From Strigamia acuminata (taxonomy: Eukaryota; Arthropoda; Chilopoda; Geophilomorpha; Linotaeniidae), in contig OX442324.1 in the NCBI GenBank assembly GCA_949358305.1, positions 3,726,001-3,790,000 of the forward strand: 64,000 bases of DNA. The letters are read 5' to 3'. A program made the position numbers and the translations under genes. Under the pieces are notes generated by a model. That model had not been told where the DNA came from, ran no database searches, and saw only the letters and a list, made by a program, of their open reading frames with translations. This document shows positions 39,489 through 40,716 of the stretch, piece after piece (positions within the stretch are counted from its first letter, which is position 1; every line of letters starts with the position of its first letter).

Positions 39489-39919
39489 ATTATTCACACA
39501 TTTCTTTCTTTATTTATTTTTTTGCGATCTCAAATCCGCGCGTTACTAAATCCGCGCAGATTTAAAAAACGAGACAAGACGCACAGCACAGCAAATTGAT
39601 TTTTATAGTCCAGGAAAATCAACATCTTTTCAAATTATGGGCATATTTGTTCGGCACATCCTCGACGACATCCGCGATGCAACACACGATGGCGATATCC
39701 GATCTGGGCTTAATTATCCAATCTTGTAATTGTGAAAGAACTCGTGCTGTTTTAGCCACGTCTATCTTTGCCTACCCTTTCTGCACTTTGCGCTGATAGT
39801 TTCTTCTTGAATGCAAGAAGAAAGATCAGCACAAGGTGCAGAAATGTTAGGCATTGCTCGTTCCGTGCATTTCACAAGTTCTGCGTCGCGAAAAATGATT
39901 TCAGTTGATTCTTGGGCAA

Positions 39920-40045
39920 CTACGGAGTGACGGAAATCCCACAACCGTCCCAAATGTCTGCCTCAACAATGAGCTCAACATTTAACACGTTCGGAATAAT
40001 AAACGCATCGTCTAGTTCACAAACTGCTTCTTTAGGTCTTTTCAT
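39920..40045 (-). pseudogene. 41-codon coding-like fragment inside the transposon
   Basis: From an ATG at 40045, the minus strand reads MKRPKEAVCELDDAFIIPNV and on to DIWDGCGISVTP, then TAG. A second minus frame, overlapping its end, stays open to 39762 with pieces such as QESTEIIFRDAELVKCTERA. Codon use and GC are gene-like, but I recognise no family. These may be transposase relics or captured host sequence broken by a frameshift. Confidence 0.35.
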
Positions 40046-40113
40046 TGCTCAAAATGACTGATTGCACTCTTTCTTTCAATTACATTGAATAACGAAATAT
40101 TTGGGCCGCTATT

Positions 40114-40550
40114 CCACGCGCGACATGGGTTGGCGCGACGTCGCGATCGTGGATACGTCCAACATTCGATGTAGCGATGTCGCGCCAACCCATGTGTGTA
40201 ACATGCGTAAGCGCGACGTATGTATTGGTTGGCGCGACATTTGCTGAATGAATCGTCACATCAGCGACCCCGGCCACCTCCGCGATCTCCGCCCGACTCT
40301 TCCTATCCCCAGCCGCGTGACTCGCCATATAAATCGCCGCCGCCGCGATCGACACAGGACTCCTACCGGACACTATCTCCAACTCGACCGCCTTTCTCGC
40401 AATATCCGTCGCAGTACGCTGCGTCGAGTGCGTCAAACCCAAATACCACGCATATCAGCAAGAGCGACGTCGCACCTATGAATTTTTGCCGGCAGCAGCA
40501 AGATTGGTTGGCGCGAATTCGTATGTCGCGCCAACCCATGTCGCGCGTGG
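40114..40550. mobile_element. Pack-type inverted-repeat element carrying a TFIIB exon
   Basis: A 26-bp perfect terminal inverted repeat beginning CCACGCGCGACATGGGTTGG bounds 437 bp. The GGTTGGCGCGA word occurs five times in both orientations within the ends (40129, 40173, 40227, 40504, 40524), giving CpG-rich subterminal arrays. Just outside, GAAATATTTGG is also inverted on both sides (40095 and 40561), so the element may be longer or sit at the centre of the host transposon's symmetry. The whole interior between the arrays is a host gene fragment (next entry). Confidence 0.8.
40251..40442 (-). pseudogene. GTF2B: Captured fragment of transcription factor TFIIB
   Basis: The minus strand reads LGLTHSTQRTATDIARKAVE, then SGRSPVSIAAAAIYMAS and EIAEVAGVADVTI. 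This is unmistakably the second cyclin-like repeat of TFIIB, the RNA polymerase II initiation factor (IARKAVEL, GRSPxSxAAAAIYMAS, IAGVADVTI). About 64 codons are present. Homology starts near the LGL of the family and stops sharply after VADVTI, where the transposon end begins, so an exon-sized piece was taken without the Zn ribbon, the first cyclin repeat or the C-terminus. The frame is intact but there is no start codon. GC-rich third positions differ from the AT-rich surroundings. It is not a functional TFIIB gene; a chimeric transcript cannot be excluded. Confidence 0.9.
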
Positions 40551-40716
40551 TACGTAACACCAAATATTTCCATAGCAAAACCGTTTTCGGGAGCGTAATA
40601 TGATTTAGATTTGCCAACTCCAAAATGGTGAAACGTGTGTCGTTACGGACCGATTTGAGAACCAATGAACGGATTTAGTAACGCGCGGATTTAGAATCGC
40701 GCGGGTTTAATCATTT

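Follow-up and report, generated by a model that had tools for sequence, protein, structure and literature searches.

A TFIIB fragment carried by a non-autonomous Mutator-like element in the centipede Strigamia acuminata

Introduction

What is part of a TFIIB gene doing between inverted repeats in the genome of a geophilomorph centipede? The question is raised by a 64-kb stretch of Strigamia acuminata DNA (G000:C12:3726001-3790000), referred to here as the window, for which a first-pass annotation made from the letters alone proposed a Pack-type inverted-repeat transposon that had captured a TFIIB exon. The capture of gene sequence by Mutator-like elements (MULEs), which gives rise to Pack-MULEs, is well known in plants, where it is known to create new combinations of genes, and has rarely been shown in animals. 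MULEs typically have terminal inverted repeats longer than 100 bp. We compared the window copy with related sequences across the S. acuminata genome (237,517,015 bases in 157 contigs), asking where the element ends, where its cargo came from and to which superfamily of transposons it belongs.

Results

Comparison with other copies and with empty paralogous sites gave the element a length of 459 bp (Table 1), 11 bp more on each side than the 437 bp originally proposed. The left flank of the element, 39500-40102, recurs at full length and with 97-98% identity at two further places on C12, C12:4353106-4353710 and C12:4363404-4364010. Both places are without the element and have the target site AAATATTT once; one of them, L075, reads flank-AAATATTT-flank when checked letter for letter, and the other, L074, does so by alignment. 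These empty sites fix the boundaries independently of the repeats, and the window copy is bracketed by an 8-bp duplication of AAATATTT. The 26-bp inverted repeats are perfect, as had been reported, but they are not terminal, because the outermost 11 bp of the two ends are unlike (GGGCCGCTATT and GGTGTTACGTA). At 26 bp, and lying 11 bp inside the end, the perfect repeat is also shorter than the >100-bp repeat typical of MULEs. Such a length is typical rather than required, since 2 of the 14 MULE families of Aedes have repeats below 60 bp (PMC5225508). The five GGTTGGCGCGA words that had been pointed out in the element are present (both strands counted; starts at 40128, 40180, 40227, 40506 and 40526), and the 64-kb window contains no others. 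Outside the element, window positions 39524-39554 and 40670-40700 are arms with 90% complementarity; the Pack-MULE may be nested in another inverted-repeat element, the left flank being repeated at C12:4.353 and 4.364 Mb.

Table 1. Features of the Pack-MULE in the window (positions counted from the first base of the window)
Feature	Position	Strand	Basis
Target-site duplication AAATATTT, left copy	40095..40102	.	Single at empty paralogous sites
Whole Pack-MULE, 459 bp	40103..40561	+	Boundaries from empty sites C12:4353106-4353710 and C12:4363404-4364010
Outer A-end motif GGGCCGCTATT, unmatched at other end	40103..40113	+	Copy comparison
26-bp inverted repeat, left arm	40114..40139	+	Perfect match to right arm
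A-side subterminal region; contains nested inverted repeats and words of the GGTTGGCGCGA type	40140..40248	+	
TFIIB-derived cargo, second cyclin repeat, 199 bp	40249..40447	-	90% to parental CDS 662-860
B-side subterminal region	40448..40524	+	Aligned to L066 end at 77% over 120 bp (window 40443-40561)
26-bp inverted repeat, right arm	40525..40550	-	Perfect match to left arm
Outer B-end motif, GGTGTTACGTA on minus strand	40551..40561	-	Copy comparison
Target-site duplication AAATATTT, right copy	40562..40569	.	Single at empty paralogous sites

The proposed repeat ends do recur elsewhere in the genome. At three or fewer mismatches, and with the ends of the window copy included, the left (A) end, searched as a 24-base pattern, was found at 24 sites and the right (B) end at 21, against 0 and 1 for the respective reversed-pattern controls; these counts include ends of a sister subfamily, which the A pattern also matches. 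Partner ends were retrieved for part of the end sites, and the comparison was confined to 23 two-ended copies, namely the 22 rows of the duplication table and the split copy C10:6306196-6319837. A/B ends mark sixteen of these, and the other seven belong to the sister kind with A'/B' ends. Copies C141 and C1:3.10 (L013, L014) are identical over 2804 bp including their flanks and were counted once, which gives 22 distinct copies; C141 may have been duplicated in assembly or may come from a second haplotype. Exact 8- or 9-bp duplications flank 20 of the 22, and the duplications of the remaining two, C6:1.90 and C3:9.70, match at 7 of 8 positions, a level attained by 0 of 1579 comparisons in a shifted-position control (8 bp, 22 table rows). 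The copy at C3:5.60 is without the right 26-bp arm, so that its right end was set by the outer motif, and its duplication of eight Ts is weak. GGTTGGCGCGA words were found in all 15 A/B rows of the table (1 to 6 per row) and in 0 of the 7 sister rows, a distribution consistent with putative family-specific binding sites. The split copy (L036, L037) has an exact 8-bp duplication and is interrupted by a nested element with direct repeats of ~1 kb. Its full 13.6 kb, of which only the two ends were read, was considered as an autonomous element and ruled out, since those ends contain the direct repeats of the nested element.

The second cyclin repeat of TFIIB, which the first-pass annotation had recognized, is present in the window copy: PF00382 matches with 57.4 bits against a cut-off of 23.6, and with 58.1 bits on the translation. 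The match had been placed at 40251-40442; it is real, lies on the minus strand and is slightly longer, and the 199 bp involved are closest to the TFIIB coding sequence (CDS) at C1:48279627-48280580. This nearest surviving TFIIB gene, elsewhere in the genome as a capture would have it, is intronless and forms one uninterrupted frame of 317 codons, and two Strigamia maritima TFIIBs were the best two of its 1917 matches (78% and 74% identity). With an uninterrupted frame as the nearest parent, the fragment is not a clean exon but the rest of a larger capture. Nor is it cut cleanly where the transposon ends begin, since the cargo ends inside the parental coding sequence on both sides and its A-side junction has, by eye, 4 bases more than the sister copy at C3:5.60.

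Other copies hold other parts of the same gene. In coordinates of the parental CDS, C3:5.60 carries 169-199 and 418-863; C1:53.92 carries 170-352 and 442-874; the one-ended copy L024 carries 175-352, 442-464 and 547-751; C1:61.04 carries 904-938; and C141, C1:28.33 and C4:6.15 keep remnants within 173-227. Jointly, the pieces cover 169-938, or ~770 bp. TFIIB sequence was detected by BLASTN in 7 of the 15 distinct two-ended A/B copies (weakest E 0.003) as well as in L024, a count that leaves out C10, to which the C4:6.15 remnant is common by eye only. Elements with the same cargo stand at different sites, each with its own 8-9-bp duplication, and their deletions differ and are partly held in common: one 93-bp deletion with the same 4-base overlap occurs in both C1:53.92 and L024. 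Pieces of one gene spread across copies, together with a common deletion, are what a single capture followed by copying and deletion predicts. The window cargo is a 199-bp remnant of a ~770-bp TFIIB capture common to other copies and later eroded by deletions; capture by the window copy itself, as had been supposed, is not supported, because the same capture was detected in six other distinct two-ended copies. The shortest TFIIB remnants may be separate captures of the same gene.

At residues 231, 268, 271 and 283, the cargo has the residues of most or all of four outgroup TFIIBs and the C1:48.28 Mb gene differs; at other sites only the cargo has changed. The donor was accordingly an older form of the C1:48.28 Mb gene or a lost paralog, and the closest TFIIB gene is not the exact donor. 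The TFIIB repeat family has 32 matches in the genome, several of them long single frames with 53-58% identity to the C1:48.28 Mb gene (for example, C8:12108268-12108828, C1:46739212-46739772, C3:11659888-11660424 and C1:49044543-49044980), and an expansion of intronless TFIIB genes in the centipede genome is possible.

Copies with different gene fragments, which had been put forward as the mark of a family, were also found: pieces of three loci besides TFIIB are present at 91-97% identity. The copy at C4:13.58 carries four pieces of C1:36546134-36547050 with 96, 97 (outside a 35-bp gap), 93 and 91% identity. In the genome, these pieces lie apart, with stretches between them that the element lacks; at one joint the overlap is 6 bases, and one piece keeps, by eye, a 3' splice site. 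The copy at C6:13.84 holds 400 bp with 96% identity from C1:36553435-36553824, inside a frame of 808 codons. The copy at C3:2.99 has pieces 94% identical to C3:12451160-12451701, a cargo common to C3:27.26 and C3:27.33; the 81 bp between its two BLAST pieces lie inside a 263-codon donor frame, and the pieces overlap by six bases. No Pfam match was obtained for the cargo frames at 0.05, and long frames and paralogs suggest that the three further donors are host genes. The cargo of some copies consists of repeats or a nested LTR element and not of genes. The 470-bp insert of C1:61.04 was ruled out as a captured gene because it recurs at 98-99% identity at five C13 places, paired ~5 kb apart, and is an LTR, and cargoes X and Y, each of which includes repeats, are not claimed as genes. 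A distance of ~6.4 kb separates two of the donors on C1, with the sister element C1:36.48 (C1:36479675) ~66 kb off and all within ~75 kb; such clustering is what a nearby repair template would predict.

The superfamily of the element was assigned through relatives that adjoin transposase sequence. At C1:39159900-39161000 (L066), a B-type end is 77% identical over 120 bp to the outermost 119 B-side bases of the window copy, and inward of it lies MULE transposase sequence (tblastn E 1.6e-31). The right end of the window copy thus has a diverged counterpart beside a MULE transposase, which makes the element, by kinship, a member of the MULE superfamily and a Pack-MULE. In the sister kind, L053 (C1:33745433) combines an A'-type end with a RING finger and MULE transposase sequence (E 3e-44); taken by itself, its fragment scores weakly against the Pfam MULE model (0.0024, below cut-off). 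No intact autonomous element with exactly the A and B ends of the window copy was found. The B end of L066 is diverged (6 mismatches) and no A end was found in C1:39159900-39161000, the right end of L053 was not found in the stretch examined, and no A/B-type end was found at L056. The moving enzyme is consequently assigned by kinship. As to a transposase of its own, window 40001-40700 has no match to a 639-aa MULE of this genome (tblastn, with 21 loci as further subjects).

This 639-aa frame, at C1:56.617 Mb (L067 with L072, C1:56615600-56618800), has a MULE transposase domain and ends in a RING finger at its C-terminus. PF10551 matches at 5e-12 with the first 493 residues scored, FLYWCH falls below cut-off, and the RING sequence scores 8.7e-10 in copy L056. 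No A/B-type end occurs at seven or fewer mismatches in the 3201 bases around the frame (one site has 8). Seven places with an identical score of 160.2 bits suggest that this MULE may have moved recently, and its 32 relatives found include some aphid proteins. The RING fragments of C13:1.84, C3:9.70 and C1:36.48 can be aligned with the C-terminal part of the 639-aa frame and so are MULE leftovers; the C13:1.84 fragment was thereby ruled out as a captured gene.

Duplications of 8 bp are also possible for hAT, Merlin and P type elements, and on their own they do not tell an unrelated inverted-repeat element of one of these types from a MULE. That such an element is involved here is extremely improbable, given that MULE transposase sequence adjoins a diverged version of the window copy's B end and that the occurrence of both 8- and 9-bp duplications is in keeping with MULEs; Aedes Muta1 produces both lengths (PMC5225508). 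How the TFIIB sequence entered the MULE is a separate matter. With an intronless donor, the TFIIB capture alone cannot tell DNA from RNA, and the piece could be a retrocopy inserted into the element instead of genomic DNA copied during repair. We consider this improbable, because the other cargoes resemble genomic pieces with internal losses: the stretch missing from C3:2.99 falls within an open frame, with six bases shared at its joint, and is therefore no spliced intron, and the four-piece cargo of C4:13.58 retains, by eye, a 3' splice site. No poly(A) was noticed, by eye only.

The remaining alternative concerns function. The frame of the window copy is open over 124 codons with zero stops in the cargo, and the first-pass annotation had offered selection as one reason for this. 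Selection might keep the TFIIB frame so that the element makes a short TFIIB-repeat peptide, or the element might give rise to a hairpin or antisense RNA directed at the TFIIB genes of the host. The length changes of the C1:53.92 cargo (-24, -93 and -3) are all multiples of three, and dN/dS is below 1 in all six cargo pairs (0.45-0.75), ratios that rest on only 9 to 60 differences per pair; for the window copy and C3:5.60, the value of 0.64 on 9 differences (3 synonymous, 6 non-synonymous) says nothing firm. A single strand of the window copy folds better than its shuffles (z -4.9, 0/100), as inverted repeats necessarily do. Against these points, all three longer sisters contain stops (two in C1:53.92, one each in C3:5.60 and L024), and C3:5.60 and L024 each have a frameshift as well, so the open frame of the window copy is no evidence of selection, and we regard a maintained product as very unlikely. 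We read the TFIIB cargo as probably decaying, with weak past constraint possible, and the window copy most likely does nothing for its host.

Discussion

Taken as a whole, the element is very probably a non-autonomous MULE belonging to a Pack-MULE family of a geophilomorph centipede, loaded with TFIIB sequence, mobilized in trans and since eroded. An ancestor would have acquired, between its ends, a copy of ~770 bp from an intronless TFIIB gene, and the most likely occasion is repair of a gap or a stalled fork inside the element on a foreign template. Joints that share a few bases would fit repair with template switching, as in the gap-filling or fork-switching models set out in a Pack-TIR survey (PMC8277862). 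The loaded element would then have been mobilized in trans by a MULE transposase, presumably that of a RING-bearing MULE. Separate copies have shed different parts of the cargo through internal deletion, the window copy being a short derivative that retained 199 bp. Beyond the deletion held in common, this order of events is our inference.

The first-pass annotation called gene-capturing elements of this type little described in animals, which is fair provided that it is not taken to mean undescribed, given the precedents of Aedes Muta1 derivatives and Drosophila FB4. In Aedes aegypti, about 20% of the Muta1 derivatives are reported to contain sequence that can be aligned to host genes, as in Pack-MULEs, and the derivatives resemble the centipede elements in being animal MULEs with 8- or 9-bp duplications and subterminal repeats (PMC5225508); the centipede family differs in its ends, in one capture that can be traced through many decaying copies, and in the RING domain at the end of the related transposase frame. 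The Pack-TIR survey identified Pack-MULEs in 0 of its 100 animal reference genomes, and Ssk-FB4 of Drosophila melanogaster, which was found in fly populations, has been argued to be a Pack-MULE (PMC8277862). Like the centipede family, Ssk-FB4 is a multicopy Pack element with long duplications, but its repeats are ~700 bp; microhomology was seen at breakpoints, and fork switching followed by transposition was proposed (PMC8277862). An insertion at the Nematostella Nv1 locus, with MULEs at both ends, was called suggestive of a pack-MULE, but it is ~15 kb and without a decay series (PMC9842752). Plant Pack-MULEs are likewise non-autonomous, carry host gene pieces and are in many cases multicopy (PMC8277862); the centipede family differs in its animal host, 26-bp perfect repeat, composite subterminal palindromes and asymmetric outer 11 bp.

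Asymmetric outermost motifs inside the duplication, and composite repeats, are also features of the Mutator/Foldback element Tm1 of root-knot nematodes, whose duplications are mostly 9 bp and for which host sequence acquisition, of a histone hairpin motif, is possible (PMC3169594). The Ghost clade comprises invertebrate MULEs with a RING zinc finger; there, the RING lies in a separate ORF and ends and duplications were not identified in the part of the source available, whereas in the centipede it is the C-terminus of the 639-aa frame (PMC6446971). The likeness between the two is limited to the RING finger and some aphid relatives. Captured coding sequence has further been described in a Harbinger-type element of Caenorhabditis elegans (PMC2572040). 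An arthropod MULE survey lists one centipede, Lithobius variegatus, with the species that have long repeats; in its available text, gene capture comes up only in general terms (PMC13359780). No centipede Pack-MULE was among the literature matches listed, from a scope with most subscription journals outside it. The kind of element is known; this member, its RING-fused relative and the series of eroded copies are new as far as the literature searches go.

A more far-reaching reading is that geophilomorph centipedes harbor a Pack-MULE system that captures host genes repeatedly, as in grasses, and is driven by a MULE transposase fused to a RING E3-like domain. Because copies at many different stages of deletion preserve the TFIIB capture, they could then show directly the order of capture, amplification and erosion, and transcripts of the hairpin elements could give rise to antisense or small RNAs against TFIIB. 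We hold this larger reading to be unlikely as a whole. The animal cases found comprise the Aedes Muta1 derivatives, Drosophila FB4, the suggestive Nematostella insertion and possibly nematode Tm1. In the centipede, a chromosome-level genome offers four donor loci together with target duplications, empty sites and copies of one capture at graded stages of loss, which opens the mechanism of gene capture to testing outside plants. A second and separate lead is the fusion of a RING domain to the transposase, and the intermediates preserved in this centipede family are unusually good.
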